DNA from: Polyangiaceae bacterium
GTDB taxonomy: Bacteria > Myxococcota_A > Polyangia > Polyangiales > Polyangiaceae
Assembly: GCA_025936045.1 (NCBI GenBank)
Contig: JAICUB010000003.1
Coordinates: 167,159 to 231,158, forward strand
Direction of reading: 5' to 3'
Length of the DNA stretch: 64,000 nucleotides
In this document: positions 7,807 through 55,376 of the stretch, one piece after another
Position numbering within the stretch: the stretch's first letter is position 1
Layout: each line of letters starts with the position of its first letter
The notes under the pieces: model-generated
Databases searched by the model: none
The model's input: only the letters and a program-made list of their open reading frames with translations
What the model was told of the DNA's origin: nothing
Made by a program: the position numbers and the translations under genes

Positions 7807-7814
7807 AAATCGAC

Positions 7815-8642: not shown

Positions 8643-8680
8643 GCGCCGGCGGCGCGGTGCTCCACGTGTAGCGCCGGCTT

Positions 8681-9748: not shown

Positions 9749-9754
9749 GCGGGC

Positions 9755-10483: not shown

Positions 10484-10502
10484 GCTACTCTGAAGACGGA
10501 GC

Positions 10503-11147: not shown

Positions 11148-11166
11148 ACGGTCAGGCCAATAACCC

Positions 11167-11796
11167 ATGATTCGCCGTATTTTAGCCACCTGTCTCGGTT
11201 CGGCGCTCGCCTTCGCCCTGCTCGCGTGCGGAGCCGCTCCCGCAAGCGCCCAGTCGACCATCAAACAACCGGGTGATCACCCGCACTACACGCTCGAGCT
11301 CGAGCCGCACATCCTCGCCCAATACGGCAACCTGCCGTACACGGACGACGGCTTCGGGATCGGCATGCGCTTTTCGGTCCCCTTCGTTCACAACGGCCCG
11401 ATCTCGACCATCAACAACAACATCGGCATGTCCTTCGGCCTCGACTGGGTCCACTTCGGTGACGACAACCGGTGCAACGGCCGCGGCAACCCGGACTTCT
11501 TCACGGACACGTGCAGCGCGACGGAGCTCTGGTTTCCGGTCACGGTCCAATGGAACTTCTTCCTCACGAAGATCATCAGTGTCTTCGGCGAGCTCGGCCT
11601 TTCCGGCCACTACGCCCGCTGGGACTACGAGGGTCCCTGCAACGCGGGCGGTGACTGCCGCTACCACGCGAGCTACTTGAACCTGTTCGAGCCGGTGTTC
11701 TGGGGCGGCGGCCGCTTCCTCTTGTGGCCGGGCGGGGGGCTCACCGTTCGGCTCGGCTGGCCGTACGTTTCGTTCGGAGCGTCGTTTCTCCTCTGA
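11167..11796 (+). CDS. secreted outer-membrane barrel-like protein of unknown function
   Basis: 209 residues with a signal peptide (MIRRILATCLGSALAFALLACGAAPASAQ; cleavage after SAQ more likely than lipid attachment at cysteine 21). The mature protein has repeated aromatic-ended beta strands (GIGMRFSVPFV, SFGLDWVHFG, ELWFPVTVQWNFFL, VFGELGLSGHYA) and ends in a strand with Phe-Leu-Leu, as for small outer-membrane beta barrels. Two cysteine pairs occur in extracellular-looking loops (DNRCNGRG..DTCSA and GPCNAGGDCRY). No family is recognised. Confidence 0.6.
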   Translation: MIRRILATCLGSALAFALLACGAAPASAQSTIKQPGDHPHYTLELEPHILAQYGNLPYTDDGFGIGMRFSVPFVHNGPISTINNNIGMSFGLDWVHFGDDNRCNGRGNPDFFTDTCSATELWFPVTVQWNFFLTKIISVFGELGLSGHYARWDYEGPCNAGGDCRYHASYLNLFEPVFWGGGRFLLWPGGGLTVRLGWPYVSFGASFLL

Positions 11797-11810
11797 CGAA
11801 AGGACGCAGC

Positions 11811-12602
11811 TTGGACGAAGAGCGCCCCGCAGCCGGCAATATCGCGACCACGATCTTTCGCGAAGTCAGGCGCCGCATTCTCGCGGGGGAGCTCAGCCCG
11901 GGCGAGCGGCTGCCGGGCGAGCGCGAGCTCGCCGCCGAGTACAAGACGAACCGCAACACGCTGCGCGAAGCGGTGCGGCGGCTCGAGCAGGCGCGGCTCG
12001 TCACGGTCCGGCACGGCCAGGGCGTCACGGTCGCTGATTTTCGCAAGAGCGGCACGCTCGAGCTGCTCGCACCGTTCCTCGAGTCCGCGGGCGATCTCGG
12101 GGAAAGCCTGCACCTGCTCGAAGACATTTTGCCCGGCCGCTTGCTCGTCATCGAGTTCGCGACCCGGCTCGCGGTGGAGCGCGCCGACAAGGACGACATC
12201 GCGCGGCTCAAGGACATCACGGAGCTCGTGATCGCGGCGTTCGAGCGGGCCGATCCGGTGCTCATCGGGCACGGCTTCCAGCGCTGGCTCGACGCTCTGG
12301 TCGACGCCGGTCACTCCGTCGCCGTGCGCTGGATCGCCAATCCCTTTTTGGAGGCCTACCGCGAGATCATCGATCGCTTTCCGGCGCTCTGGGTGCTCGA
12401 GCCGAGCTTTCCGCACTATTTGCGGGAGTTCAACGCCGCGCTCGAGGGCGCCGACGCCGAGCGCGCCATCGGGCTCACGCGCGTCTACTACCAGCGCGTC
12501 GACGGTGCCTTCATGCAGGCGCTCAAGGCGATCATGAGCCAGCGCACGAGCGGCCCCTTCGCTTCCCCGCTCGAAGACGCGCCGAACGAGCCGCGGCACT
12601 GA
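11811..12602 (+). CDS. GntR family transcriptional regulator, FadR-type
   Basis: About 263 residues. The winged-helix domain is textbook: IFREVRRRILAGELSPGERL, PGERELAAEYKTNRNTLREA, VRRLEQARLVTVRHGQGVTV. A helical FCD-like effector domain follows. I chose the TTG at 11811 because an AGGA ribosome site lies 7 bp upstream; the longer frame starting at 11724 overlaps the preceding gene by 73 bp. The ligand is unknown. The following Nif3 gene is 19 bp away and may be co-transcribed. Confidence 0.85.
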   Translation: MDEERPAAGNIATTIFREVRRRILAGELSPGERLPGERELAAEYKTNRNTLREAVRRLEQARLVTVRHGQGVTVADFRKSGTLELLAPFLESAGDLGESLHLLEDILPGRLLVIEFATRLAVERADKDDIARLKDITELVIAAFERADPVLIGHGFQRWLDALVDAGHSVAVRWIANPFLEAYREIIDRFPALWVLEPSFPHYLREFNAALEGADAERAIGLTRVYYQRVDGAFMQALKAIMSQRTSGPFASPLEDAPNEPRH

Positions 12603-12621
12603 GCCTACGCCGGCAAAGACG

Positions 12622-13773
12622 ATGGCGCTGCCGCTCACCCGGGTCGTCGCGTTACTCGAGCGGCTCGCACCGCTCGCGTACGCGGAGGAGTGGGACAACG
12701 TCGGGCTCTTGCTCGAACCGCTCGCCGATCGCCGCGCGGCCGCGGAGCCGCCGAGCGTCGCGCGCGCGCTCGTCACAATCGATCTGACGGAAGCGGTGCT
12801 CGACGAAGCCGCCGAGCGCGACGCGGATCTGATCGTCGCGTATCATCCGCCGATCTTTCGGCCGCTCAGGCGCCTCGGGACGCGAGCGCTCGCCGACCGC
12901 GCGGTCCAACGTTGTGCGCGCGCCGGCGTCGCGATTTACTCGCCGCACACCGCGCTCGACGCGGCTCCGGGCGGCGTGAACGACTGGCTCGCGGGCGCCG
13001 TGGGCGCGGGCGAACGCGTGCCGCTCGTGGACGGGCGCGTGCTCGGGCGCACGCAGGCGTTCAAGCTCGTGACGTTCGTCCCGCCGGAGCACGTCGACAC
13101 CGTCGCGAACGCCCTCGCGAGAGCGGGCGCGGGCGTCATCGGCGAGTACACGGAGTGCTCGAGCCGCACGAACGCGACCGGCACGTTTCTCGGGGGAACG
13201 CAGACGAACCCAGCCGTCGGCGAGCGCGGCAAGCTCGAACGCGTGGAGGAGATCCGGCTCGAGATGGTGTGTCCGGAACGCGCGCTCGGCGCCGTGGCGC
13301 GCGTGCTGCGTGACGTCCACCCGTATGAAGAGCCCGCGTGGGACGTGTACCCGCTCGCTCCGCGGCCGGACGCGGGCTTCGGCATGGGCCGGGGAGTGAT
13401 CCTCGCCGAGCCGACGACGCTCGAAGCGCTCGTCGCGCGACTGAAGACGCACCTCGGGCAGAGCACGCTGCGCGTCGCGGCGACCGAGCCGCAGCGCGCG
13501 GGCACGGCGGTGCGCAACGTCGCGGTATGCGCGGGTTCGGGCAGCGGCGTCTTCGAGCGCGCTCCGGGCTTCGACGCTTACGTCACGGGCGAGCTCTCCC
13601 ACCACGGCGTGCTCGCGCTGCTCAGCGCGGGCGCGAGCGTCGTCCTCACCGAGCACTCGAGCTCCGAGCGCGGCTTCCTCTCGACCTACGCGCGACGACT
13701 CGCCGAGCTCACCGAAGGCGCGCTCGAAATCGCGGTTTCGGAGCGGGATCGGGAGCCGATCGAGAGCTGGTAA
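12622..13773 (+). CDS. Nif3-like dinuclear metal-centre protein (YbgI/YqfO type)
   Basis: 383 residues in the long form of the family, with an insert domain (about 135-240) between the two halves of the Nif3 fold. Signatures: EEWDNVGLLLEP, LIVAYHPPIF, IYSPHTALDAAPGGVNDWLA, YVTGELSHHGVLALL and VVLTEHSSSERGFL, which supply the His/Asp/Glu metal ligands. The protein forms toroid hexamers with bound metals; GTP cyclohydrolase-like activity has been reported for some members, but a general role is not settled. Cytoplasmic. Confidence 0.88.
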   Translation: MALPLTRVVALLERLAPLAYAEEWDNVGLLLEPLADRRAAAEPPSVARALVTIDLTEAVLDEAAERDADLIVAYHPPIFRPLRRLGTRALADRAVQRCARAGVAIYSPHTALDAAPGGVNDWLAGAVGAGERVPLVDGRVLGRTQAFKLVTFVPPEHVDTVANALARAGAGVIGEYTECSSRTNATGTFLGGTQTNPAVGERGKLERVEEIRLEMVCPERALGAVARVLRDVHPYEEPAWDVYPLAPRPDAGFGMGRGVILAEPTTLEALVARLKTHLGQSTLRVAATEPQRAGTAVRNVAVCAGSGSGVFERAPGFDAYVTGELSHHGVLALLSAGASVVLTEHSSSERGFLSTYARRLAELTEGALEIAVSERDREPIESW

Positions 13774-40732: not shown

Positions 40733-41149
40733 CTAGCCGCCGCCCTGAAAGAGCTCGTTCAACGCGGCCGTGTCGACGAATTCGCGCAAGAGGACCACGC
40801 GACCGTCACGAACGCGGAGCAGGTACACCACGGCCTGCCGGAAGGGTCCTTTCGGGGTTTCGCCGACGATGTCGAACTCGACGATCCCGACCTCGGGATC
40901 CGTCGTCTGGTGAAAGACCACGTTCTCGTGCCCCGAAATCCGGCGGTTCGTCTGCGTCGCGCGCTCCCATACGGGCGCGAGTGCCGCGCGGATCGCTTGT
41001 CGCCCTTCGAGGCGCGCCGCCACACCTTTAAGCCTGAACGGCCATTGCATCACGCCGTCGAGGGCGAAGCATTCCAACCAGCCTTCGAGGTCGCGCGTGA
41101 CTTGATGAGAGACGAGGTGTTCCCAGATTTCGCGAGGTGATTTCGTCAT
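40733..41149 (-). CDS. NTF2/SnoaL-like fold protein
   Basis: 138 residues from the ATG at 41149 (AAAGGG site upstream). Sequence pattern of the cone-shaped NTF2 fold: IWEHLVSHQVTRDLEGWLECFALDG at the N-terminus, LEGRQAIRAALAPVWERA, HENVVFHQTTDPEVGIVEFDI, VVYLLRVRDGRVVLLREFVD. Members include small isomerases, cyclases and ligand-binding proteins. It lies downstream of the TetR gene on the same strand and opposite the adenylation cluster, so a role connected to that pathway or its regulation is conceivable. Catalytic residues cannot be assigned. Confidence 0.8.
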   Translation of the reverse strand: MTKSPREIWEHLVSHQVTRDLEGWLECFALDGVMQWPFRLKGVAARLEGRQAIRAALAPVWERATQTNRRISGHENVVFHQTTDPEVGIVEFDIVGETPKGPFRQAVVYLLRVRDGRVVLLREFVDTAALNELFQGGG

Positions 41150-41213
41150 CGACTCGAGCCCTTTCCGTTCGAACCGCGCAAGAGAAACGACGCCCGCCTT
41201 GGGCGGGGTCGAG

Positions 41214-41266
41214 TGACACCCGGTGGGAACCCAAAATTCACGCTCGATGCGAGTGGTCCCCGGTGT
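41214..41266 (-). repeat. dispersed repeat copy B
   Basis: Inverted copy of the element at 30560-30612. It covers the last codons (TGDHSHRA) and stop of the TetR gene and about 24 bp beyond. The right-hand arm of the hairpin found with copy A is not conserved here; instead a separate small hairpin (CCCGCC-TTG-GGCGGG) lies at 41193-41207. Confidence 0.75.
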
Positions 41267-41843
41267 CGAGCAAATCAGCAACGGCTTGCGCGATGCGCTT
41301 CGGCCTTGCCGACGGACCATCGACCCTCGCCAACACGGTAATGCCGACGAGAGTAGCCAAGAGAAGACTCGCGACCGCTTTCGGATGGAGGGCATCGTCG
41401 AGTTCACCGCTCTTCTTCCCCTCCACGAGCGTCGCTTCGAGCACGTTCTCCATTCGCTCGAACGTGCTCCGCACGAGCCTCATCGCGACCGGATCGCTGC
41501 GACCCAACTCCCCGGCGGTGTTGGCGGCCAAACAACCCCGGCGAAGAGTCGCCTCGTTCTCCGGCGCGGCGAGTCGTTCGAAGTACCCGTTGATGCGCCG
41601 GCGAACTGGCCCGGGTTGGGCAAACCAGCCGACGAGACCTGCGACGCGGTCGTCCCCGTAGCGGCGCAGCGCTCTTTCGAAGAGCGCGTGTTTGCTGCCG
41701 AAGGCATTGTAAAAGCTGCCTTTGCCCACCCCGATTCCCTCGAGGAGCTCGGCGGGTGTCGTGGCGCCGTAGCCCCTCTCCCAGAAAAGCTTCAGGGCGG
41801 TGGCGACCGCAGCGTCGAGCTCGAAAAGGCGCGGGCGACCCAT
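41238..41843 (-). CDS. TetR/AcrR family regulator
   Basis: 201 residues from the ATG at 41843. N-terminal DNA-binding domain: LDAAVATALKLFWERGYGATTPAELLEGIGVGKGSFYNAFGSKHALFERALRRYGD in helix-turn-helix order. The C-terminal helical domain carries a cysteine in RRGCLAAN, typical of a TetR subgroup sensing small electrophiles or drugs. It is divergent from the citrate-synthase-like/adenylation cluster and 88 bp upstream of the NTF2-like gene. Its last residues lie in the dispersed repeat, so the C-terminus may have been altered by repeat insertion. Confidence 0.9.
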   Translation of the reverse strand: MGRPRLFELDAAVATALKLFWERGYGATTPAELLEGIGVGKGSFYNAFGSKHALFERALRRYGDDRVAGLVGWFAQPGPVRRRINGYFERLAAPENEATLRRGCLAANTAGELGRSDPVAMRLVRSTFERMENVLEATLVEGKKSGELDDALHPKAVASLLLATLVGITVLARVDGPSARPKRIAQAVADLLDTGDHSHRA

Positions 41844-41851
41844 GCCTCCGA

Positions 41852-41880
41852 TCAATACCCATTTTGTACCCACAGGTCAA
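41852..41880 (-). promoter_or_regulatory. probable sigma-70 promoter of the TetR gene
   Basis: On the minus strand, TTGACC (-35) and TATTGA (-10) are separated by 17 bp. The spacer holds most of a direct repeat, TGGGTA-CAAAA-TGGGTA. The predicted start point falls within a few bases of the ATG at 41843, so the transcript may be leaderless. Confidence 0.45.
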
Positions 41881-42006: not shown

Positions 42007-42726
42007 ATGACCGAAAGACCGAGCGACAGTCCGGTACGGCGTGCCGGGCCGATCGACGTGGAGCTCTGGCCTTCCACACTGGCGGCGCGCGTGGTCGAAG
42101 CGGGACCCCCGCCGCGCATCCACGGCTACGATGTCGAAGGCGATCTCGCGCGCCACTACTCGTTCGCCGAGATCACGCTGACGGCGCTCACGGGCGTCGC
42201 ACCGGAGCGCGGACACGGACGCGCGTTCGAGATTGCGCTCGCCTTCCTCGCGCCGGTGCCCGTGAGCGAAGCGCCCGGGCACGCTGCCGGACTCGCGCGG
42301 CTGATCGGCGCGGACGCGAGCGGCGTCATCAGCGGCGCAGCCATGGGGCTCGCCGAGCGCGCGCGTGAGCTCGTCTCCGAGCACACCGAGCTCGTCGCGT
42401 GGCTCGACGCGGGAACCGGAAGCGCGCCGCCGAGCACACAGACCGACGATTCGAACGAGGCGAATGCCGTGGCGCGTCTGCGCGCTGCCCTCGCGGAGAC
42501 CGGCGCGAGCTTCCCGCTGCTGAACTCGCGACCTAAGTTGCTGGCAGCGCTCATCGGCGTGCTCCACGGGGTGGGGCTCACCGACGCGCCGAGAATCGAG
42601 GCGGCGCTGGCGTTGGCCGGGCTGCCCGCCACGCTCGCCGAGGCGTTCGCCGTGAAGCCGTTTGCGTTCTTCAGCTACCCGATGGACCTGCCCGCGTTCC
42701 GCTACATCGAGGGCGCGGATGGCTGA
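42007..42726 (+). CDS. citrate-synthase-like protein 1
   Basis: 239 residues. The N-terminus carries the citrate-synthase phrase IHGYDVEGDLARHYSFAEITLTALTG (counterpart of the RGYxIExLA..SFEEV..LL.G motif). It continues with helical sequence like the family (RAFEIALAFLAPVPVSEAP, ASGVISGAAMGLAERARELV) and a second half containing GVLHGVGLTDAPRIEAALAL. It is much shorter than an active citrate synthase (about 430), and the three catalytic residues cannot be located with confidence. Overlaps the next gene by 8 bp. It heads the five-gene cluster; a partner role to protein 2 is inferred. Confidence 0.55.
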   Translation: MTERPSDSPVRRAGPIDVELWPSTLAARVVEAGPPPRIHGYDVEGDLARHYSFAEITLTALTGVAPERGHGRAFEIALAFLAPVPVSEAPGHAAGLARLIGADASGVISGAAMGLAERARELVSEHTELVAWLDAGTGSAPPSTQTDDSNEANAVARLRAALAETGASFPLLNSRPKLLAALIGVLHGVGLTDAPRIEAALALAGLPATLAEAFAVKPFAFFSYPMDLPAFRYIEGADG

Positions 42727-43537
42727 GCCGCTAAAACGCCCGGTGCTCGTCACGCGCGTGGGTCACGTCGGTCCCGACCACCATCGCTTTCGCGGCTTCG
42801 ACGTCGGAGCAGAGCTCGTCGGGCACGAGAGCTACTGGAGCCTGATCTCGCTCGCGATCGGCGGGCCGCGCATCGACTCCGAGCTGAGCCGCCTGCTCGA
42901 CGATCTCGCGACCAGCTTGGTGGGTCCCGATCCGCGCATCTGGCCGTGGAAGCTCGGCCGCTTGATGAGCGCGTACGGTCGCTTCTCGGTGGGCATGGCC
43001 GGGCCGCTCATCATGATGAGCAGCGGCCGCGTGGGTCCCGCGGCGCTCGCCTCGGTCGCGAGGTTCTTCGACGAGCTCGCGCGCGAGCTCGGTGCGGAGC
43101 TTGCGGACGAGGGGGCGCTCACGCGTGCGGTCGAGCGCAAGCTCGAGCAGGTCCCGCGACCGCCGGGTTTCGGCACACCCTTCCGCAACCAAGACGAGCG
43201 CAACGCGCCCATCATCGCGCTCGTGCGGGCACACGGACGCGAGAATGGCCCGCATTTCTCGCTGGTTCAGCGGGCGGCGCCGATCGTCTTTCAGAAAACA
43301 CGGCTCCCCGTCAATGCGGCGTCCCTCGTGAGCGGACTCTGCCTCGATCTCGGCTTCAGCCCCGAGCAGATCGACGTTTTTGGCATCCTGCTGCTCGTGT
43401 CGAACCTGGTCGCGAATTCGTTCGAGGGCTCGCGCGAAGCGCCCGCCGTCCTCAAACGACTGCCGGCGGAGTTCGTGCGCTACGTCGGGCACGCCGCGCG
43501 CAAAAGCCCGCGCGCCGAGAGCGGAACGGCGCCGTGA
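42719..43537 (+). CDS. citrate-synthase-like protein 2
   Basis: 272 residues. Family-like parts are HHRFRGFDVGAELVGHESYW near the N-terminus and PPGFGTPFRNQDERNAPIIAL, which aligns with the PGFGHxxY..DPR active-site loop but has Thr where the catalytic His should be. The canonical HGGA histidine is also absent (GMAGPLIMMSSG). It may therefore be a non-catalytic partner of protein 1 or catalyse a different reaction. Start overlaps the stop of gene 1; stop overlaps the GTG of the dehydrogenase (GTGA). Family assignment rests on motif resemblance. Confidence 0.55.
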   Translation: MAEPLKRPVLVTRVGHVGPDHHRFRGFDVGAELVGHESYWSLISLAIGGPRIDSELSRLLDDLATSLVGPDPRIWPWKLGRLMSAYGRFSVGMAGPLIMMSSGRVGPAALASVARFFDELARELGAELADEGALTRAVERKLEQVPRPPGFGTPFRNQDERNAPIIALVRAHGRENGPHFSLVQRAAPIVFQKTRLPVNAASLVSGLCLDLGFSPEQIDVFGILLLVSNLVANSFEGSREAPAVLKRLPAEFVRYVGHAARKSPRAESGTAP

Positions 43538-44676
43538 TCGCGTTCGAGTGGGACGACGCCGAGCTCTACGCACGGACTCTCGCCTTCGCGGCGCAAGAGC
43601 TCGCGCCGGGCTCCGCCGAGCGGATCCGGAGCGGTAGCTTCGATCGCGAGCTCTGGCGGCGCGCGGGCGCCTTCGGCTTGGCCGGGCTGCCGGTTCCGAA
43701 GACGTACGGCGGGATGGGACTCGGCGCGGCGGCGACGGCCCACTTGCTCGAAGCGCTCGGGTGCGGCTCGAACGATGCCGGTCTCACGTTCTCGCTCGCC
43801 GCGCATCTCTTCGCCTGCGTGGTGCCGCTCGCGCGCTGCGGCTCGGAGCCACAGAAAGCCGCGTTGTTGCCGCGACTCGCGAGCGGGGAGCTCGTCGGCG
43901 CGAGCGCGATCAGCGAAGAGGGCGCGGGGTCCGACGTGTTCGCGCTCGCGACCAGCGCCGTCGCCGACGGCGACGACTACGTGCTCCACGGCGAAAAATC
44001 CTGGGTCACGAACGGCCCCGTCGCGGATATTTTTCTCGTTTACGCGAGGACGCAGCCGAACGCGGGCTACTTCGGCGTGAGCGCGTTCGTCGTCGAAAAG
44101 GAGCGGCCGGGCCTACGCGTCGGAGAGCCAATCGCCAAGGTGGGCCTCGAGACGTCGCCCACGTGCTCGCTCGTTCTCGAGGCCTGCCGCGTACCGAAGC
44201 ACAACCTCGTGGGACAGCTCGGCCAGGGCGCGCCTCTCTTCGAGCACGCCATGCTCTGGGAGCGGAGCTGCCTGTTCGCGCTTTACCTCGGCAGCATGCA
44301 GACGGCGCTCGACCGCGTCGTCGAGCACGCGAAGACGCGCCGGCAATTCGGCCGCGCGCTCGGGGATTTTCAGGCTGTTTCCCACCGCATCGCCGACATG
44401 AAGGTGCGGCTCGAAGCCGCGCGAGCGCTGCTTTACCGAGCGTGCTTCAAGCTCGATCGCGACGAGGACGCGCGGCTCGACGTGGCCATCGCGAAGCTTT
44501 TCGTGAGCGAGGCGGCGGTGCAGTCGGGTCTCGACGCCATGGAGCTCTTCGGCGGCCTCGGCGTCGCAAGCGAGAGCGGCGTCGAACGATTCCTGCGTGA
44601 CGCGTTACCGGCGCGCACGGTGTCGGGCACCTCCGACATCCAGCGCACTCTCATCGCGCGCGCTCTCGGCTTGTGA
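43534..44676 (+). CDS. acyl-CoA dehydrogenase family flavoenzyme (carrier-bound substrate likely)
   Basis: 380 residues from a GTG overlapping the previous stop. Complete ACAD fold: GLAGLPVPKTYGGMGLGAAAT, the flavin-contact ISEEGAGSD, EKSWVTNGPVADIF, PTCSLVLEACRVPKHNLVG, LDRVVEHAKTRRQFGRALGDFQAV, and MELFGGLGVASESGVERFLRDA. Next to a proline-type adenylation enzyme and a free carrier protein, it fits the dehydrogenases (PltE/RedW/CloN3 type) that oxidise prolyl-carrier protein to the pyrrole. Expected cofactor FAD, cytoplasmic. An alternative is dehydrogenation of another tethered acid. Confidence 0.85.
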   Translation: MIAFEWDDAELYARTLAFAAQELAPGSAERIRSGSFDRELWRRAGAFGLAGLPVPKTYGGMGLGAAATAHLLEALGCGSNDAGLTFSLAAHLFACVVPLARCGSEPQKAALLPRLASGELVGASAISEEGAGSDVFALATSAVADGDDYVLHGEKSWVTNGPVADIFLVYARTQPNAGYFGVSAFVVEKERPGLRVGEPIAKVGLETSPTCSLVLEACRVPKHNLVGQLGQGAPLFEHAMLWERSCLFALYLGSMQTALDRVVEHAKTRRQFGRALGDFQAVSHRIADMKVRLEAARALLYRACFKLDRDEDARLDVAIAKLFVSEAAVQSGLDAMELFGGLGVASESGVERFLRDALPARTVSGTSDIQRTLIARALGL

Positions 44677-44687
44677 GAAGCGGTTCG

Positions 44688-46175
44688 ATGCGCGTTCTGA
44701 AGGATCTTTTGCTCGAGGCCGCAGCCCGCACTCCGGACGCGATCGCCCTCAAGTGTCCGGAGCAAGGTGCCGTCCGTTACGCCGAGCTCGACGCGCTCGC
44801 GAATCGCGTCGCGCACGTGCTCGCCGCGCGCGGCGTGGTCAAGGGTGACCGTGTGGGTGTTTTCATGCCGAAATCCGCCGCGGCGCTCGCGGTCATGCAG
44901 GGCGTGCTGCGCCTCGGCGCCGCTTACGTGCCGCTCGACCCCACGAGCCCGCTCGCGCGCGTGCGGGCGATCGCGGCGGATTGCGGCCTCGCCGCGCTCG
45001 CGGGCAACGGCGCGCGGCTCTCCGCGTTCGCCGCCGAACCCGGTGGGCCGTTCCTGCTCGAGCTCGACGGCGCCGGACGCGCGCTCCTCGACGCCGCACC
45101 CGCAAGGCCGCCGCCGGCACCGGTCCTCGCCTCGAGCTCGCTCGCCTACGTGCTCTACACGTCGGGCTCGACCGGCGTCCCCAAGGGCGTGGCCATCGGC
45201 CAGGAAAACGCGCTCGCGTTCGTCGACTGGGCGAGAGCACACCTCGGAGTGACGCGAGGGGACGTGCTCGCCAATCACGCGCCCCTCCACTTCGATCTTT
45301 CCGTGCTCGACGTCTACGTCGCATTCAGCGCGGGGGCGTGCGTGGCGCTGGTGCCGGAAATGGCGGCTTTCGTGCCGCGATTGCTCGTCGACTTCGTCGC
45401 GACGCACGGTGTCACGATCTGGTATTCGGTGCCCTCGGCGCTCGGCCTCATGCTCGAGCACGGCGGGCTACTCGAGCGCCCGGGGCTGCCGCTCCGAGCC
45501 GTGTGCTGTGCGGGCGAGCCGTTTCCCCCGCGCCTACTCGCTCTGCTGCGTCGCGAGCTACCGGGCGTACGTGTCTCGAACTTGTACGGACCTACCGAGA
45601 CCAACGTTTGCACGTTTTACGACGCGCCCGCCGAGGTCGACGGCGAAACGCCCGTGCCGATCGGTACCGCCGCGAGCGGCGACGAAGTCTGGGCCGTGAA
45701 GGACGACGGCTCGCGCGCCGCGACAGGCGACATAGGCGAGCTGCTCGTGACTGGTCCCACCGTCATGCTCGGTTATTGGGGTCAGGCGCCGCATCCGCGC
45801 GGCGCCCCGTACCGCACGGGAGATCTCGTGCGCGTGCGTTCCGACGGCGGCTTCGAGTACCTCGGCCGGCGCGACCGCATGGTGAAGCTCAAGGGTCACC
45901 GCGTCGAGCTCGGCGAGGTCGAGACGGCGCTCCGCCACCACCCCGAAATCGGCGAGGTGGCGGCGACGGTCGTCGGCTCCGCCATGGAGGCGAAGCTCGT
46001 CGCCGTCGCGGTCCCGCGGACCGAGCGACACGTGCCCCTGCTCGAGCTCAAGACGCACTGCGCGAAATTCGTCCCGCGCTACATGATCATCGATCGCGTG
46101 GTCTGGCTCGACACGCTGCCGCGTACGCGGAACGGCAAGGTCGATCGCAGCGCCATCGCGAGCGCCTGTCAGTGA
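44688..46175 (+). CDS. stand-alone adenylation enzyme, proline-type pocket
   Basis: 495 residues, a complete NRPS-type adenylation enzyme without attached carrier domain. A3 loop YTSGSTGVPKG (158-167), A4 HFDLSVLDVY (201-210), A5 NLYGPTETN (298-306), A7 YRTGDLV, A8 GRRDRMVKLKGHRVELGEVE, A10 Lys in PRTRNGKVDR. Aligning by eye to GrsA, the pocket residues read D-L-L-Y-C-A-L-V-C-K. The code published for L-proline ligases of pyrrole pathways (PltF, RedM, CloN4) is DLLYLALV, so only one position differs. It should activate proline (or a close analogue) and load the carrier encoded next. ATG 44688 preferred over GTG 44673. Confidence 0.88.
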   Translation: MRVLKDLLLEAAARTPDAIALKCPEQGAVRYAELDALANRVAHVLAARGVVKGDRVGVFMPKSAAALAVMQGVLRLGAAYVPLDPTSPLARVRAIAADCGLAALAGNGARLSAFAAEPGGPFLLELDGAGRALLDAAPARPPPAPVLASSSLAYVLYTSGSTGVPKGVAIGQENALAFVDWARAHLGVTRGDVLANHAPLHFDLSVLDVYVAFSAGACVALVPEMAAFVPRLLVDFVATHGVTIWYSVPSALGLMLEHGGLLERPGLPLRAVCCAGEPFPPRLLALLRRELPGVRVSNLYGPTETNVCTFYDAPAEVDGETPVPIGTAASGDEVWAVKDDGSRAATGDIGELLVTGPTVMLGYWGQAPHPRGAPYRTGDLVRVRSDGGFEYLGRRDRMVKLKGHRVELGEVETALRHHPEIGEVAATVVGSAMEAKLVAVAVPRTERHVPLLELKTHCAKFVPRYMIIDRVVWLDTLPRTRNGKVDRSAIASACQ

Positions 46176-46186
46176 ACGGAGTACGG

Positions 46187-46438
46187 ATGGACTCGAACGA
46201 CGTCGAAGCGCGCATCTTCTCTTTCATCGCAAAAACCCTGCTCGGCGGCCATTCCGAGGGCCTCGAGCGCGCGACACCGCTGCTCGAGCTCGGCGTCGTG
46301 GACTCGATGGGCATCACGCGACTCACGACCTTTCTGGAGACGGAGTTCGGGCTTCGCGTACCGGTCGAAGAGCTGAGCGCCGTGAACTTCGCCAGCATCG
46401 AGGCGATTGCGCGCCTCGTCCTGCGGCTTTCGGCATAG
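46187..46438 (+). CDS. acyl/peptidyl carrier protein
   Basis: 83 residues, single carrier domain. The phosphopantetheine attachment serine lies in LLELGVVDSMGITRLTTFLE, and the protein ends VEELSAVNFASIEAIARLVL, as in free peptidyl carriers of pyrrole pathways. GGAG lies 5 bp before the ATG; a GTG at 46172 overlapping the upstream stop is possible. No phosphopantetheinyl transferase is nearby, so a genomic one must serve it. Last gene of the cluster. Confidence 0.9.
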   Translation: MDSNDVEARIFSFIAKTLLGGHSEGLERATPLLELGVVDSMGITRLTTFLETEFGLRVPVEELSAVNFASIEAIARLVLRLSA

Positions 46439-46486
46439 CCCGAGAGCGGGCACGGTTCGCCCCGTGTGTTAGAGTGCGAATCTCCC

Positions 46487-46864
46487 GTGCGCGTCGCACT
46501 CGTCCTGACCTACGTCGCCGCCGCAGGGCTCGGCTACCTGCTCGGAGTCCGCGGACTCTTGCCCTACGGTCCACTGAAGTCGTCGACCTCCACGCCGCTC
46601 GCACGTCTCGGCCTCGCGTTGCGGGACGGCACCGGCAAGGCGGACGCGGCGAGCCTCAGCCTGCTCCGCGGCGACACGGACGCCGTGCGCGCGACCCTCG
46701 GCGTCCCCGAGCGCGACGCCTTCGACCTCGTCGTCGCCCTTCGGGGCCTGAAGAACGGCGGCAAACCCGACGTCGCTGCCGCGGAGCGGAGCTGCCGGGC
46801 ATTGAAACTGGCGCGCTGCGACGCGAGGGCCCTAGAAGTGCTTCAAAAGCGGAGCGCGCCTTGA
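46487..46864 (+). CDS. small membrane-anchored protein of unknown function
   Basis: 125 residues from GTG 46487: one N-terminal hydrophobic segment (RVALVLTYVAAAGLGYLLGV) and a mainly helical soluble part ending with a cysteine pair (SCRALKLARC). Not recognised. The stop overlaps the TTG start of the next gene. Together with the next two genes it forms a coupled trio. Confidence 0.6.
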   Translation: MRVALVLTYVAAAGLGYLLGVRGLLPYGPLKSSTSTPLARLGLALRDGTGKADAASLSLLRGDTDAVRATLGVPERDAFDLVVALRGLKNGGKPDVAAAERSCRALKLARCDARALEVLQKRSAP

Positions 46865-48776: not shown

Positions 48777-50387
48777 TCAGGACGCCTTGAGAGCCATCAC
48801 TTCACCCGGGTTTTTGATGCCGTCCGTGTCCTTGTTGCCGTCGAATACGCCGAACGTCGTCACCGGACCGCCGTCTGCCGCCTTGCAACCGACGGCGTTC
48901 ATCAGCGTGACGTAAAGCTTGTTGATCGGTTGGTTTCCGCCGCTCGAGCCCGTGTTGCCGATGGTGCCGCCGTTCTGGCACGAGCTCTCGCTGTTGCCCT
49001 TGCCGATCGTCTTGCCTTCGACGTTCACCGCGGCGCCCGTCTTGAGGTAACCGCCGCAGCTGCCGGCGATGAGAATGGGCAGGTTATTCAGGTTGTGCGC
49101 GGCGCCGTCCGAGAGCTCGGGCAGCCACATGGTCGCCGTGTTGTCGAGCAGAGTGCCGTCACCCTCGGGCATGCTGTCGAACGTCTGCACGAGACGCGTG
49201 AACTTGCCGGCGAGCCAGGTGTCAATCTGCGCGATCATGTCGATGACGCCCGCGTAGCAGTTGCCGCCGACGGTGAAATCCCCGGTGCGATGCGAGAGGC
49301 CGTGGTGCTCTTTCGTCATCATCAAGCCGTCCCACTTGTAGATGACGTAACCCGGATACAAGAAGACGAAGGTGCGATTGACGTCGCACGTCATGGCTAG
49401 CGCCATGAGGTTCATCATCATGTCGCCGCCCTTGGTGAACGAGGTGGCGAGGTTCGCGTCGCCGTCCGCCGTGCCCTTCGGCCCGAGCACGTTGCCGGCC
49501 GTGATGCTGCCCGTCGGGCTCGCGGCCGTCACCGCCGCGTCCGTGATACCGAGCGTCGCCTGCGTGGCGGCGTTGCACACGGCCTGCATCGCGGGGTCCG
49601 TCATACCGGTCTCGGTGTCGCGAAGGAGCGACAGCCAAGCGTCGATGCGGTCCTGGTCCGCCTTGCTCATGTTGAGGCGCTTGTACGTCTGCAGATCGTC
49701 CGTGACGAGGTCGATCGCGCTCTTGCCGCGCGCCACGTGGTAGTCGGCGGGCGTCATGCTCGTACCGCCCGTGCTGCCGCCGGTCGAGCCGCCCTGCATG
49801 ACGACGCCCGTGAGAAGCTTGTAGACGCTCGACGGGTTCACGTTCGACGGGAACGCCGTGTTGGGCGCCGAGAAGGAGATCACCTCTTTGATGAGGGTGC
49901 TGGGCGCGCCGACGCTCAGCACGAGCGGCGTCTTGTCGCCCGGGTTGATCTGCTTGGCGATGGTGTGATCGAGCGACTCGGCCGTCGCGTAGCGGTTCGA
50001 CTCGGTGGAGATGTACGCGCACGTGAGCTTCGAGCCGCACGCTTGATCGTGAGGGTCGATCGATTGCCCGACCGCATACGAGTTCATCGAGCGGAAGCCG
50101 CGCGGCAGAAGCAGCTTGTTCACGTAGGGGGAGAGCGGCTCGAGGTACGTGCCCGTGAGGTCGCTCGCCGCGAGCGCGCCGTCTTCCTTCGACGGGAACC
50201 AACGGGTCGTCAGCGTGCCGTTGTGCGTGTAGAAGATGACTAGGCGCTTCGGCGGCGTCGCCGGCACGCTCTGCGCTTTGGCCCACTGTTCGTGGACGGA
50301 GCTCAGGAACGGCGCCGCCAAGCAAGCGCCCGCCACTCCCTTCAAAAAGATTCTTCGCTGCATCGGAGGCCGCTTCGTGGGCGTCAT
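48777..50387 (-). CDS. DUF1552 family exported protein
   Basis: 536 residues with a twin-arginine-like signal (QRRIFLKGVAGACLAAPFL). Family landmarks: RLVIFYTHNGTLTTRWFP, GSKLTCAYIS, SLDHTIAKQI, and EHHGLSHR, which resemble the arrangement of DUF1552 and DUF1501 sulfatase-like proteins. They occur almost always next to a DUF1592 cytochrome protein, as here (ATGA overlap). Proposed but unproven: large extracellular oxidative or polymer-degrading complexes. Length is normal. Confidence 0.9.
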   Translation of the reverse strand: MTPTKRPPMQRRIFLKGVAGACLAAPFLSSVHEQWAKAQSVPATPPKRLVIFYTHNGTLTTRWFPSKEDGALAASDLTGTYLEPLSPYVNKLLLPRGFRSMNSYAVGQSIDPHDQACGSKLTCAYISTESNRYATAESLDHTIAKQINPGDKTPLVLSVGAPSTLIKEVISFSAPNTAFPSNVNPSSVYKLLTGVVMQGGSTGGSTGGTSMTPADYHVARGKSAIDLVTDDLQTYKRLNMSKADQDRIDAWLSLLRDTETGMTDPAMQAVCNAATQATLGITDAAVTAASPTGSITAGNVLGPKGTADGDANLATSFTKGGDMMMNLMALAMTCDVNRTFVFLYPGYVIYKWDGLMMTKEHHGLSHRTGDFTVGGNCYAGVIDMIAQIDTWLAGKFTRLVQTFDSMPEGDGTLLDNTATMWLPELSDGAAHNLNNLPILIAGSCGGYLKTGAAVNVEGKTIGKGNSESSCQNGGTIGNTGSSGGNQPINKLYVTLMNAVGCKAADGGPVTTFGVFDGNKDTDGIKNPGEVMALKAS

Positions 50388-52237
50388 GGGGAAACCTCGC
50401 GGAGTCGGAACGATTGAGTCTGGGTCAGATCGGCAATCAGGTTGAGGATGGCGTAGTTACCGCCGGCCATCTTGGCGGAGAGTTGCGCTACGTCGCATTG
50501 GTCGGCCGCGTCGCCCGGGCGCTGGTACGCGTAACCCACCCACTGCTTGACGTATTGCTGGAGCGCGCCCGGTGACGACGCGATCGCCGCCATGAGGTCG
50601 GCCGGACCGTTGACGTGCACCGTGGGTTGGCCGTCGACGACCGTGATGTCGGCGGTGGTGTCGAGCGGGACGCCGTTCGACTCCGTGGTGCGCCAGGCGC
50701 CCATGGCGTCGAAGGCCTCCATCGCGAACCCGGGCGGGTTGATGTAGCCGTGGTGGCACGATTTGCAGCTGTCACCCGAGGTTTGCGCGTCGACCTGCTT
50801 GCGGTTCGTGTCGAGGTCGGGTGAATCCGGCAGCGCGGTCTGAGTCGCGCCCGCGGGCGGAGCCGGGATGTCGATGCCGAGGATCTGCTTCGAGATGAAC
50901 GCGCCGCGGTAGATCGGGTTCGTGCGCGTGAGCGACGCGAAGTTCATCAAGAAGCCGAGACGCGTGAGGAAGCCCGGCCGTTGCGTCGCGTCGAGCGAGA
51001 CCTCGGTGAGGTCGGCTCCGTACTTGCTTCCGTCGAGTCCGTAGAGCGGCGCCGTGTCCTTGTTCACGAAGGCGATCGGGCTCGTCAGGAAGTCCTTGAA
51101 CGTCGAGCCGGCCGTGAACGTGATGGCGTCGAAGAACTTCAGCGTTTCATCGTCGATCGGGCCGACGACCGCGGGATTCCAGTTCGGGAACGTGGCCGGG
51201 TCACGATTCGCGGTGGCCCAATGCGACTCCGAGTCCATCAAGAGGTAGTGCTGGTGGAACGCGGAGACCATGTCGCGCGCCTTCGGATCCTGCAGCATGC
51301 GCGCTGCCTGCGCCGCGATCTGCTGCGGCGTCTGCAGCATGTTCTGGTCAGCGGCCTGGTTGAGCGCCGCGTCGGGCGTCGTGCCCCAGAGCATGTAGGA
51401 GAGGCGTTGCGCGATTTCAGCGCTGGACAGGGTGAAGTGTCCGGCGCCGTCCGAAACCGCGGTCGTCTCCGCGCGCTGGATGAACGTGGGGGAGATGAGG
51501 AACATATAGAGGAGCGCCTGGGCGACCTCCATCGGCGCGCCGGTCGGCGTGATGGTCGCGCCCGCGGCGATCACCTTGTCGAAGCGCGCGACCTCATCCG
51601 TCGTGAGCGGGCGACGGAAGGCCAGACGCCCGAAGTCGATGATCGTCTGGTGTAGACAGGTCGTGTCACCGGCGGCAGGGGTGCACTTGATGAAGTTCGC
51701 CGTGAGCTTCGGATCGGCGAAAACCTGCGTGGCGATCTTGTCGGCGACGTCTTTGTAGTTCGCCCACGCGAGGTCCGTCATGCCGCTCGTGAGGTCGGTC
51801 GCGAGCAAGGTAGAGGGCACGACGCCGTTCGCCGCCGTGAGGTTCGTCACGCCGAGGAGGTCGCGGATGGTGCGGTCGTACTGCGCGTTCAAAAGCCGCG
51901 GGATCTGCGAGGTGGCCTCGATCTGCGGCGTGCAGTTCGGGTTCAGCATTCCCGTTCCGCCGCTAGACGAGCCTCCGGCGCCCGGCGTGGTGCCCCCGGA
52001 GCTTCCGCCGGAGCCGGGGCTCGAAGTGCCGCCGCTACCGCTGCCGTTGCCTCCGCTCGCGCTCGTCGCACCGCCGCCCACGGACGAACCGGCTCCGCTT
52101 CCGGTGTTCGTCCCGGCGCCGGAGCCCGGGGTGGCGTTGCCGCTCGCGCCCATGCCGGCCGGCGGCGACTGGATGTCTGCCGTGCAGCCCACGCCGAAGG
52201 CGGCTGCTACGAATACTGCACTCCTCCACATAGCCAT
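50384..52237 (-). CDS. DUF1592/DUF1588/DUF1585 cytochrome-like lipoprotein
   Basis: 617 residues. The ATG at 52237 has a GAGG site upstream and gives a lipoprotein signal ending FGVGC; residues 19-95 are a Gly/Ser/Thr tether. Then the multi-DUF module: IPRLLNAQYDRTIRDLLGV (DUF1587), FGRLAFRRPLTTDEVARF (DUF1595), LSYMLWGTTPDAAL (DUF1592), RPGFLTRLGFL and NPIYRGAFISKQIL with CKSCHHGYINPPGFAMEAFD (DUF1588, heme-c motif CKSCH), and the C-terminal DUF1585 (YAYQRPG...). First gene of the operon with the DUF1552 protein and the small cytochrome-like lipoprotein; all are exported. Confidence 0.92.
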   Translation of the reverse strand: MAMWRSAVFVAAAFGVGCTADIQSPPAGMGASGNATPGSGAGTNTGSGAGSSVGGGATSASGGNGSGSGGTSSPGSGGSSGGTTPGAGGSSSGGTGMLNPNCTPQIEATSQIPRLLNAQYDRTIRDLLGVTNLTAANGVVPSTLLATDLTSGMTDLAWANYKDVADKIATQVFADPKLTANFIKCTPAAGDTTCLHQTIIDFGRLAFRRPLTTDEVARFDKVIAAGATITPTGAPMEVAQALLYMFLISPTFIQRAETTAVSDGAGHFTLSSAEIAQRLSYMLWGTTPDAALNQAADQNMLQTPQQIAAQAARMLQDPKARDMVSAFHQHYLLMDSESHWATANRDPATFPNWNPAVVGPIDDETLKFFDAITFTAGSTFKDFLTSPIAFVNKDTAPLYGLDGSKYGADLTEVSLDATQRPGFLTRLGFLMNFASLTRTNPIYRGAFISKQILGIDIPAPPAGATQTALPDSPDLDTNRKQVDAQTSGDSCKSCHHGYINPPGFAMEAFDAMGAWRTTESNGVPLDTTADITVVDGQPTVHVNGPADLMAAIASSPGALQQYVKQWVGYAYQRPGDAADQCDVAQLSAKMAGGNYAILNLIADLTQTQSFRLREVSP

Positions 52238-52433
52238 GAAACTGACCTCGTCGGTTCTTGGTGTTTCTCGCAAGAAGAGACCGTCGTGTGAGTTATGCCC
52301 GCACCTCGTTCCCCAAATTGCATCTGAGATCGGGAAGGATCTTTTGACGCGCAGAGTTAAATTTTTCAGCAAAACGAGCAGCGGTGCGCCAAAAATGCGA
52401 ATCACGCGCGCCCGACGGGAATTTCCCGCGAAT

Positions 52434-55376
52434 CTACGGCTCGTCGTCGTGCGGATCGGCCTGCGGCAGCGAGAGCACGTGCTCGATCCGCCGCAGGCGG
52501 TCGCGCTGCGACTTCGGCACGTCCTGCTCGCGCCCGTGGATACGTAAAGGAGTGACGAGCGGCGACGAAAACGCCTCACTCGGGCGCTTCCCGAGCACGA
52601 GGACTTTGAACCCCGGGTTGCCCGCGAACTTCGCCAGCGGCTCGCGTCCGGCGGCGCCACTCTGCACCGCAGCCGCGAGGGCAGCGCCCATCACGTCTCG
52701 CTCCGGGCCGAAGTGAACGAGCGTGAGGCCCGCCGCGCTACCCGCGCGGGTGAGCGCGGTGAAATTCACGTCCGCCGTGAGGTCCTGGCTGCCGGGCGCG
52801 GCGTAGGGGTCGTTCGGGCGGGGGATGTAGGCTTGGGCGGCGCCGTAGACGCGAAATGGGAAATCACCCCGCCGGGCGCCGTTGACGAGACCCGAGGTGC
52901 TGTCGCCGTAGTCGATGGTCACGACGAACCCGGCCGCGAGCGACGCACCGAGCTCCCGGATGAAGCCGTCGGCGTGGACGTTGACGTAGGCGACGACGCC
53001 CGACTCTTCGGCGGCGAGCGCGAGGGCGTATTCCCGCGCATTGTCGCGAAGGTGCCGGACGAGCTCGGGCAAGACGGACACGGGGACGTACGCTTCCTCG
53101 AACCAGAGCGCGGCGAGCCGAGCGTCGCGTTCGTCCACATCGAGCGTGGCGAGCTCGACCATCACGTCCGAGAAGGTGGCCGCGTCGAGGTAGCGGTCCG
53201 GCACGTGGTTTGCCAAACCGAACGTCTCGCGCAACGACGCGTCGACGGTGGCCACGCGCGTGCGCAGCACCGCGGGGAGCGCGCCGACCAACGCCGGCTC
53301 GAGACGCGGCACGACGAGCGCCGCGAGCGCGTGTCCGTCCGCCGTGAACGCGACCTTGTGGACGCCGAAAGCGTCCGGCACCTCGTTCGTGACGACGAAG
53401 CCGCGCACGCCCGCCGGGAAATCACGTTCGAGCGCTGCGCGCGGCCGGCGGGCGTCGCCGGGAGCGATCACGGCACGCTCGCCGAGGAGCTCGCGCTGGC
53501 GAGCGCGGAGCGACTCCGACATTTCGTAGACGTAGTAGCGAACGCTGGCGGCGAAGCGTTGCCAGCTCTCGCGCAGCGGGTCAGCCGGGTCGGCGGCGGC
53601 GTGCCTAACCCCATCCAAAAAATCACACGCCAAACGGCCGTTGCCGGCGCCAAACTCGATGACCGGAAACGGGTCGGCCCCAGCGAGCTCGCCGTGTGCG
53701 AGCATGTCGCGCCACGCGCTGAAGGCCCATTGGGCGATCCAACGGCCGTAATACGGCGTGAGCTCCTCGGGGTGCGTGTCGAAGTGACCGCCCTTGCCGA
53801 TGACCACACGATGACCGTAGTAGCCCCACGCGGGATCCTGGAGCGCGGCGTCCATGTACGCTTCGAACGTCGGGAACGTGCGCGCCGCCGCGGCGTACGA
53901 CGCGGGCGGCAGCGCGAGGGCGCCGAAGAGCTCGTGGTTCGCGAGCGGACGCCGAGGCGCGGCTTTCGGTGCGGGGCCGAGGCTCTTGAGGGAACCTTCC
54001 TCCGTGAGCGGCAGCGCGGCGCCGAACGTGAGGCGACTCTTGAGACGGCGGAGGCCGCGGGCGCCCGGAACGCGAGCGAGCCACGGATCGAGGCCGCGGT
54101 ACGGCCAGTGCGAAAACGTCGCCGCGCTCAGCGCAGCGAGCGAGTCCGCGTCCACCTGGGCTTCTGTGAGCAGGCGCCGCATACCCTCACCGTCGAGATC
54201 GTTCGGGTAAATCGCGCCCGGCTCCTCCTCCGGCACACGGCCGAGCTCGCGCGACAAGCGCTCGAGCAGGGTGCGCAGCGCGCGGGCGGACTCCGCCGTG
54301 TCGGATTGCGGCGAAGCGCGACCGCTGAGCTCGAGCAGACTCAGCTTGCGTTTTAGCGGGAAAAGTCGCCACCAGTGTTCGCGCGGGTCGTCGCCGAAAG
54401 TGAGCGGCAGCTGCCCCGCGAGAAAGCGCTCGACCCACGCGCGGTAGGCGCGCCCTTCACGGGAACGGCCGAACTCGGTGATGAAGGCGCGCGCCGCGTG
54501 CTCGCCGTCTTCAGGCTTTTGTCCGAGGTCGCGCGCGCGGTAGCGCAGGCCGCGCACGACACCTTCGAAGGTGACGGACGGATTCGAAATCAAGGCCGGC
54601 AAGCCCGTGAGTCCGCCGTCGACGCTGAAATCCTCGTACGCCATCAGCTGCACGAGATAGAGGATGAAGAGGCTCGGTCCGATGCCGGGCTCGCGCCGGC
54701 GCACGGCCGTGAGGCGCACGTCGAGCGACCCGTCGCTGCGGCGCGTGACGGCGAAGTCCCCGTCGTTGACGAAGACGTCGGTGACGGCGGTCCCGCCCTC
54801 GACTTCCGGTTCGTAGTGGTAGACGAGCGCGGCCACCATCTCGGCGAGCAGCTCGGCCGTGCCGCTCGGGCCGAGCGGGAGGAGCCAGCCGTCGGGCAGC
54901 CGCAAGCGGGCAGCACCGGCGCCGAGCAGCACGGGGAAGTGCCGCTCGAGCGCGGCGAACGTCGCGGCCGGCACGCCGCCGCTCAGCTGCCACAGCGCCT
55001 CGGGCTCGAGCACGAAGCGACCGAGCCCGCGCTCGCGGAAGTAACGCGCGTTCTCGACGTTCTGCTCGGGGACATCGCGCTTGGCCCGTCCACGGCTCGA
55101 AGGTTCGTCGAGCGCGAGCGGCACCTGTGCGACGAAGCGACCCGCTTCGTCCTTACACAGGATGTCCCAGGTAAAAACCCCCATGCGCCCCGAGACGACC
55201 TCGAGCGGCCCGCGCTTTACGGCCAAGTCCTGCATCAAGTAGTCGATCGACTCGGGACCGAGACGCTCGTTCACGCGACCGTCGTAAAGCTGCGCAGGAT
55301 GGGCCGTGATCAGGTTGTCCCGCGACCAACGGCTCGACATCAGCGCGGAAGCGGCGGGAAGCTCGGGGAACGACAT
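52434..55376 (-). CDS. fusion protein with MidA-family methyltransferase half
   Basis: 980 residues from ATG 55376 (the frame is open further upstream). The C-terminal half (about 520-980) is a MidA/NDUFAF7-type SAM methyltransferase: FEAYMDAALQDPAWGYYGH, ELTPYYGRWIAQWAF, the SAM-binding IEFGAGNGRLACDFL, VTNEVPDAFGVHKV, VVTIDYGDS, and LTADVNFTALTRAGSAAGLTL. In mitochondria the family methylates an arginine in complex I. The first about 500 residues match nothing I recognise; they contain LYDGRVNERLGPESIDYLMQ and IGPSLFILYLVQLMAYEDFS. Typical MidA proteins are 350-450 residues, so this is a clear fusion. Confidence 0.85.
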   Translation of the reverse strand: MSFPELPAASALMSSRWSRDNLITAHPAQLYDGRVNERLGPESIDYLMQDLAVKRGPLEVVSGRMGVFTWDILCKDEAGRFVAQVPLALDEPSSRGRAKRDVPEQNVENARYFRERGLGRFVLEPEALWQLSGGVPAATFAALERHFPVLLGAGAARLRLPDGWLLPLGPSGTAELLAEMVAALVYHYEPEVEGGTAVTDVFVNDGDFAVTRRSDGSLDVRLTAVRRREPGIGPSLFILYLVQLMAYEDFSVDGGLTGLPALISNPSVTFEGVVRGLRYRARDLGQKPEDGEHAARAFITEFGRSREGRAYRAWVERFLAGQLPLTFGDDPREHWWRLFPLKRKLSLLELSGRASPQSDTAESARALRTLLERLSRELGRVPEEEPGAIYPNDLDGEGMRRLLTEAQVDADSLAALSAATFSHWPYRGLDPWLARVPGARGLRRLKSRLTFGAALPLTEEGSLKSLGPAPKAAPRRPLANHELFGALALPPASYAAAARTFPTFEAYMDAALQDPAWGYYGHRVVIGKGGHFDTHPEELTPYYGRWIAQWAFSAWRDMLAHGELAGADPFPVIEFGAGNGRLACDFLDGVRHAAADPADPLRESWQRFAASVRYYVYEMSESLRARQRELLGERAVIAPGDARRPRAALERDFPAGVRGFVVTNEVPDAFGVHKVAFTADGHALAALVVPRLEPALVGALPAVLRTRVATVDASLRETFGLANHVPDRYLDAATFSDVMVELATLDVDERDARLAALWFEEAYVPVSVLPELVRHLRDNAREYALALAAEESGVVAYVNVHADGFIRELGASLAAGFVVTIDYGDSTSGLVNGARRGDFPFRVYGAAQAYIPRPNDPYAAPGSQDLTADVNFTALTRAGSAAGLTLVHFGPERDVMGAALAAAVQSGAAGREPLAKFAGNPGFKVLVLGKRPSEAFSSPLVTPLRIHGREQDVPKSQRDRLRRIEHVLSLPQADPHDDEP

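Follow-up and report, generated by a model that had tools for sequence, protein, structure and literature searches.

An operon joining a predicted proline-to-pyrrolyl trio to an unnamed pair of citrate-synthase-like genes in a Polyangiaceae bacterium

The five-gene operon and its proline trio

We analysed a 64,000-nucleotide stretch of DNA from a Polyangiaceae bacterium (assembly GCA_025936045.1, contig JAICUB010000003.1, positions 167,159 to 231,158; hereafter the window), in which five open reading frames (ORFs) on the + strand at 42007-46438 encode, in this order, two short citrate-synthase-like proteins (CS1 and CS2), an acyl-CoA dehydrogenase (ACAD), an adenylation enzyme and a carrier protein. 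The operon is a new combination of a known trio with an unnamed CS-like pair. An earlier reading made from the letters and ORFs (the sequence-only reading) had described five same-strand genes in this order with overlapping or nearly overlapping junctions, and its order, coordinates and overlaps were reproduced from the ORF list. With GTG starts assumed, all four junctions overlap: the stop codon of CS1 falls within the start of CS2 (8 bases), and the CS2/ACAD, ACAD/adenylation enzyme and adenylation enzyme/carrier junctions share 4 bases each. For the adenylation enzyme, the assumed start is the GTG at 44673, and the first residue of its solved relative 6o6e lines up with an ATG at 44688.

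The last three genes appear to be the known proline-to-pyrrolyl trio of a proline-type adenylation enzyme, a prolyl-carrier dehydrogenase and a carrier, an identification already made by the sequence-only reading and on which NCBIfam and PDB matches, the binding pocket and conserved residues agree. The ACAD and AMP-binding domains score far over their Pfam cut-offs. The ACAD (43534-44676, + strand, 380 residues) is of the L-prolyl-carrier-protein dehydrogenase type, its top PDB matches, 5zw0 (E 4.8e-108) and 6af6 (E 3.3e-107), both being L-prolyl-[peptidyl-carrier protein] dehydrogenases. The third match, 6cxt, was deposited as a butyryl-CoA dehydrogenase and the fourth, 4irn, is a prolyl-ACP dehydrogenase; the 4irn-type dehydrogenase stops at dehydroproline. 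The window ACAD stays under the corresponding NCBIfam cut-offs, with 484.8 bits for PigA of prodigiosin (cut-off 500) and 450.4 bits for RedW (cut-off 650). Glu243, which we take to be the catalytic base, is kept in 20 of 20 aligned rows, the window included.

The stand-alone adenylation enzyme (44673-46175, + strand, 500 residues) has as its best PDB match an L-proline--[L-prolyl-carrier protein] ligase (6o6e/7thq, 472.9 bits). Its pocket, aligned at residues 208, 209, 212, 251, 278, 280, 304, 312, 313 and 489, ten positions that we assume to follow the PheA convention, reads DLLYCALVCK, the same code that had earlier been obtained by eye. In the same alignment 6o6e reads DLLYLALVCK, so that the window has Cys at position 5 where 6o6e has Leu. 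We considered whether this Cys might indicate a new substrate and found no support for the idea: the same code occurs in another trio (L152), and other ligases read L, F, V or I at this position. Taken together, the alignments suggest that proline is the likely substrate, and a non-proline substrate was thought unlikely, as the pocket is in keeping with the top-scoring solved structure, a proline ligase. Among 18 other ligases encoded beside related ACADs, seven have the pocket DLLY(L/C)ALVCK (six DLLYLALVCK, and L152 with the exact window code), and nine differ at one or more positions while keeping the Y at the fourth. The pockets of the remaining two are quite different (L162, DLFNVSVSSK; L164, DLFNISVSSK), and a related ACAD alone is therefore no proof of proline. 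The stand-alone carrier protein (46172-46438, + strand, 88 residues) matches the PP-binding family (PF00550) with 28.3 bits against a cut-off of 20.8. Its phosphopantetheine serine, Ser45, is Ser in all 18 aligned rows, the window included, and the host genome holds one ACPS-family match, on contig C30 (the window lies on C13).

To place the trio among its relatives, we searched 317 genomes of the class. ACAD relatives (E 1e-90 or better) were found in 36 of them, the window's own included, at 38 places, and in none of the seven other genomes of the same genus. The trio was compared at 20 of the 37 ACAD places outside the window. The window's order of ACAD, ligase and carrier recurs in 13 (L146-L149, L151, L154-L161; the ACAD of L157 was taken from the ACAD search of the fetched stretches), the other seven being reordered or short of a member. 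Ten of the 20 stretches contain ketosynthase-type genes (sequence cluster c2), checked by Pfam in two cases. The trio is thus a known module and ordinary in the class. Further examples of such proline ligase/dehydrogenase/carrier sets are PigI/PigA/PigG and RedM/RedW/RedO. For pyoluteorin, PMC5395296 describes PltF as activating proline and loading PltL, with PltE carrying out the oxidation; the window likewise encodes a stand-alone proline ligase, a prolyl-carrier dehydrogenase and a carrier with the expected matches and residues. In contrast to that system, no halogenase, polyketide synthase (PKS) or ketosynthase family was matched in the tested genes near the window operon. At L148, L149 and L151 the trio is followed by halogenase-type flavoprotein and ketosynthase genes in a pyoluteorin-like arrangement (by Pfam in L148, by clusters in the others).

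Fold and residues of the CS-like pair

CS1 (42007-42726, + strand, 239 residues) drew no match from Pfam at E 1 or from NCBIfam at E 0.1. CS2 (42719-43537, + strand, 272 residues) matched NCBIfam citryl-CoA lyase models below their cut-off only (best 60.2 bits, E 1.7e-16; cut-off 245), and its sequence search of the PDB gave nothing significant. We therefore turned to predicted structures. AlphaFold2 modelled CS1 with a mean predicted local distance difference test score of 87.6 and a predicted template modelling score of 0.79, and CS2 with 82.3 and 0.78. In Foldseek searches the CS1 model best matched the citryl-CoA lyase module of ATP-citrate lyase (6hxo_D; E 1.2e-4, probability 1.00, root-mean-square deviation (rmsd) 8.1 Angstrom) and the CS2 model best matched citryl-CoA lyase (6hxp; E 1.1e-8, rmsd 8.4 Angstrom). 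Both proteins are thus predicted to have the citryl-CoA-lyase fold. Their profiles match each other in hhalign (E 1.8e-7 over 198 columns), and CS1 and CS2 would therefore be two diverged copies of one ancestor. Against the ordinary citryl-CoA-lyase-like proteins of the class the CS2 profile aligned over 246 columns (E 4.5e-19) and the CS1 profile over 50 columns only (E 3.8e-7). The possibility that CS1, lacking a family match, is not a citrate-synthase-like protein was excluded by the fold search and the profile match to CS2.

The fold and size of both proteins are those of citryl-CoA lyase, the C-terminal module of ATP-citrate lyase and citrate synthase, and CS2 shares the G-x-G...D-x-R and D-x-G motifs with proteins of this fold. 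The pair differs from them in consisting of two diverged genes instead of one, in the absence of the second motif region from CS1, and in the histidines of CS2. Four histidines (71, 150, 153 and 232) are invariant in 11 ordinary citryl-CoA-lyase-like relatives, and the first of these we take to be catalytic from motif similarity to known lyases. Across 44 rows of CS2 (L112 dropped, five loci without CS1 included), His occurs at these positions in 0, 0, 0 and 7 rows, with Asn at 232 in the window; in two rows a His stands no more than two columns away from 71. In 34 rows of CS1 (L025, L027, L037, L098, L101 and L111 dropped for length or score) the counts, which stem from a poorly alignable region, are 0, 0, 1 and 0, position 71 being a gap and 232 a Glu in all.

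Each protein conserves a residue set of its own. CS2 keeps D71 (43 of 44 rows), W75 (41), R81 (43), D159 (44), E160 (43), R161 (44) and D210 (44), with R73 and P76 likewise kept in 41 to 44 rows; CS1 keeps Y41, D46 and H92 (33 of 34 rows each) and E212 (34). This conservation, together with the open frames, led us to reject the idea that the genes are decayed. The pair is thus genuine and unusual, as had been proposed before: models of both proteins match the citryl-CoA-lyase fold and the histidines are non-canonical. Its family is unnamed in Pfam and NCBIfam, and no description was met in a full-text literature search, from which most subscription papers lay outside, so that this is no proof of its being unpublished.

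The ordinary citryl-CoA-lyase-like relatives may also be special: classical citryl-CoA lyases have a catalytic Asp at a position where 10 of the 11 relatives (L116 included) align a Thr. At ten of these loci (L113-L115, L117-L122, L124) the lyase-like genes adjoin genes for acyl-CoA-synthetase-like proteins that match the adenylation enzyme at 24-28%.

Distribution of the pair and its usual partners

The CS2 profile matched in 55 of the 317 class genomes at any strength, ordinary lyase-like proteins included, and a CS1 search of 377 genomes of the phylum gave matches in 60, those at the low end being short or weak. Further searches for the pair covered 97 relatives and, by one peptide pattern, wider genome contigs, only the latter reaching beyond the phylum. 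The pattern search returned 18 loci, several identical to loci already found, titled Myxococcales, Polyangiaceae, Deltaproteobacteria or uncultured proteobacterium; none had a trio match at E 1e-5, the queries matched there being at most a kinase, a thiamine diphosphate (ThDP) enzyme, CS1 and CS2. For comparison we used 57 loci, of which 39 outside the window carry both CS1 and CS2 (L024-L039, L086-L106, L111, L112; some genomes give two, and L031 belongs to the window's host). The count excludes L040 and L107-L110, which have a CS2-like gene and no CS1, and L113-L125, which have ordinary citryl-CoA-lyase-like genes or no pair. Within the 39, CS1 of L111 is weak, and CS1 of L037 and CS2 of L112 are in two pieces. 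The fetched stretches measure up to about 18 kb, many ending at contig ends, and genes outside the window come from a crude gene caller.

A ThDP enzyme gene was found in 36 of the 39 loci, L025, L029 and L031 showing none. Of these genes 23 are close (over 50% identical to the query) and 13 divergent (28-37%), those of L099 and L104 lying several kb from the pair; the divergent ones are weaker evidence, as acetolactate-synthase-like genes are common. A histidine kinase was matched with 200 bits or more in 23 of the 39. The main form of the pair locus is a kinase-ThDP-CS1-CS2 cassette, for which no name was found and whose ThDP enzyme is acetolactate-synthase-like, below the cut-off in the NCBIfam models shown, with BbmA and CsmA (8x3x, 8x3z; 452 and 331 bits) as nearest solved relatives; the window encodes no such enzyme. 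The window shares with the cassette the order, overlap and conserved residues of CS1-CS2, and differs in having the proline trio and in the absence of such a kinase or ThDP gene from its contig. Its pair is 30-48% (CS1) and 29-38% (CS2) identical to aligned relatives and gets no supported place in trees of either protein.

No ACAD, adenylation or carrier match (E 1e-8) was found within the fetched stretches of the 39 loci, and, conversely, none of the 20 other ACAD loci has a CS1 or CS2 match. The sequence-only reading had made the pair part of a pyrrole pathway and had added that conservation of the CS-like genes without the other three would break this model. Such conservation is what the 39 loci display, with a ThDP gene as the usual neighbour, and a dedicated place of the pair in such a pathway is not supported; the pair may still act within the window operon. 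It is a separate unnamed module joined to the trio in the window's lineage.

Two genomes outside the class (L218, L219) also have the ThDP, CS1 and CS2 genes together. In six genomes of one family the cassette adjoins type VI secretion genes (L091:1583-7969, L092, L095, L098, L101, L105), identified by Pfam in L091 as Hcp, TssF, TssG and a ClpB-like ATPase and by clustering in the other five as TssG-like and ClpB-like. At L099 (11613-13013) and L104 a cytochrome P450 gene (Pfam in L099, cluster in L104) lies between a divergent CS1-CS2 pair and the ThDP gene, with extra kinases. A defence system was considered and dropped, as PADLOC gave no match for CS1, CS2 or the kinase and ThDP enzyme of host contig C57.

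The host genome contains a second CS1-CS2 pair on contig C66 (L031:3481-12888), in a setting resembling that of L029 from the same genus and with no ThDP gene: the neighbours of CS1-CS2 are major facilitator superfamily, 3-hydroxyisobutyrate-dehydrogenase-like, fused hydroxyacyl-CoA dehydrogenase and thiolase genes (families tested in L029). ThDP enzyme matches at E 1e-20 number four, on C57, C68, C44 and C41, with none on C13, and C57 alone has a copy of the cassette kinase. On C57 (L171) the kinase and ThDP genes occupy 6919-10370, and a convergent AcrB-family efflux gene (Pfam) follows at 10374-13514, 3 bases past the end of the ThDP gene. In L036, from the same genus, the order is ThDP-CS1-CS2-efflux gene, so that the pair sits between the two genes that are neighbours on C57. 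The efflux protein, ThDP enzyme and kinase of the two loci are 83%, 81% and 70% identical. Searches of L171 with hidden Markov models at maximum sensitivity gave nothing significant for the CS genes (best E 0.015 and 0.019), and the comparison suggests that the pair was cleanly lost at L171, or gained at the other locus. This ThDP enzyme is encoded in 29 class genomes, and its gene is adjoined by CS1 at least in 23 of them (in L217 by a fragment of CS1 where the contig ends) and by neither in six, absence being unsure in G184 (L216), where only 1368 bases follow the ThDP gene.

A proposed recruitment of the pair to an ordinary trio

Our best explanation, to which we give a probability of about 0.45, is that an ordinary trio has been joined by a recruited, non-canonical CS-fold heterodimer that handles the carrier-bound acid. 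The trio would load L-proline on the stand-alone carrier, and the ACAD would oxidise the carrier-bound proline to pyrrolyl-2-carboxyl-carrier, or at least to dehydroprolyl-carrier. CS1-CS2, probably recruited from another setting and elsewhere paired with a ThDP enzyme, would bind the thioester as a heterodimer and handle the acid by release, transfer or condensation, using a chemistry that would differ from the histidine-based chemistry of citrate synthase. We propose this role because the overlaps indicate that the genes are expressed together and because the tested neighbours gave no match to a release or extension family: between 35065 and 55451, the tested genes include no thioesterase, condensation or ketosynthase family, and the window's contig has no ketosynthase or condensation match. 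Something else must therefore use the acyl group. As the host genome holds nine ketosynthase-type matches, none on C13, and one condensation-domain match, on C30, it is also conceivable that the pyrrolyl group has its acceptor elsewhere in the genome.

Several observations weigh against this explanation. The pair stands beside the trio in no other genome examined, which leaves joint function without comparative support. The fold matches of CS1 and CS2 were obtained from single-chain models at an rmsd near 8 Angstrom, CS2 is without three of the four family histidines, and a ligase beside a related ACAD is not always proline-like, as in L162 and L164. Furthermore, C57 encodes in trans a ThDP enzyme like those that usually accompany the pair, and the pair could serve that enzyme instead.

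This last point leads to an alternative that we find somewhat unlikely, in which the pair is unrelated to proline: it would be a partner displaced from the kinase-ThDP locus on C57 and expressed from the trio operon by chance. It would account for the C57 locus being without CS genes and yet syntenic with L036, which has them between its ThDP and efflux genes, and it agrees with the adjoining CS1 in 23 of the 29 genomes. The identities do not support a displaced C57 copy by simple vertical descent. The window pair is 39.6% (CS1) and 31% (CS2) identical to that of L036 although the ThDP enzymes are 81% identical, whereas in eight other locus pairs with ThDP identity of at least 76% the values are 40-60% for CS1 and 43-69% for CS2, which puts the window CS2 below the range and its CS1 at the edge; six of the eight come from four loci of one family and are not independent. 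The six genomes that keep the ThDP enzyme with no pair found beside it also suggest that the partner is dispensable. A broader proposal, which we consider distinctly unlikely, is that CS1-CS2 is a new two-subunit enzyme of the citryl-CoA-lyase fold with a different active site, acting on acyl-carrier or acyl-CoA thioesters; with the ThDP enzyme and sensor kinase it would make and sense a small molecule in myxobacterium-like genomes, and in the window it would have been rewired to pyrrolyl-carrier, giving a short pyrrole metabolite without a PKS.

A genuine condensing enzyme, joining pyrrolyl-carrier through a C-C bond to a partner that is a CoA or a keto acid, would fit the fold of both proteins, their operon position and overlaps, and the location of all nine ketosynthase matches off the window's contig. 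The sequence-only reading had suggested that the pair might condense the carrier-bound acid, and this part of it is weakened by the histidines at 71, 150 and 153, which are missing from all 44 CS2 rows and, in the poorly alignable region, from all but one of the 34 CS1 rows at a single position; as the trio is also beside the pair in none of the 39 other loci, we judge condensation improbable. The same loss of family histidines, with other residues fixed, could be that of a pseudoenzyme, a regulatory or scaffold pair that binds an effector such as an acyl-CoA and controls a neighbouring enzyme, be it the ThDP enzyme or the trio. The fast evolution of the pair relative to the ThDP enzyme, its association with different enzymes and the six of 29 genomes with no adjoining pair are consistent with such a role, but no known regulatory domain was matched in Pfam or NCBIfam, and we have little confidence in it. 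An assembly artefact fusing two loci would explain why the arrangement occurs in no other genome examined, and the host assembly is a draft of 6.37 Mb (87 contigs; completeness 86.6%, contamination 4.29%). Stop and start codons nevertheless overlap at all junctions, G+C is even across the operon (0.70-0.71 at 42-46 kb) and the contig measures at least 231 kb, so that we give an artefact almost no credence.

Tracing the two genes upstream of an ordinary trio exposed an unnamed pair that has a predicted citrate-synthase fold, has lost most family histidines and recurs at 39 other loci. Should the pair be an enzyme, it would represent new chemistry on a fold of central metabolism, and the compact window operon, with its five genes, would allow a guess at the substrate: an acid derived from proline and bound to the carrier. 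Should it be a regulator, it would clearly exemplify a CS-fold pseudoenzyme that occurs as a pair.

The operon is flanked upstream by a divergent TetR-family regulator gene (41238-41873, - strand; PF00440, PF16925; weak NCBIfam AcuR match of 46.2 bits, cut-off 247) that lies 133 bases from CS1. Judging by position only, its product is likely to regulate the operon. Adjoining the TetR gene, a gene for a SnoaL-like protein (40733-41407, - strand) possibly shares its operon and may have a tie to the pathway. Downstream, a small ORF of 132 residues (46466-46864, + strand) begins 27 bases past the carrier gene, has no Pfam match and is a possible sixth operon gene. No tRNA was found in the window. 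Outside the operon, at 48777-52660 on the - strand, a DUF1552 gene adjoins a DUF1592/DUF1588/DUF1585/DUF1595 gene.

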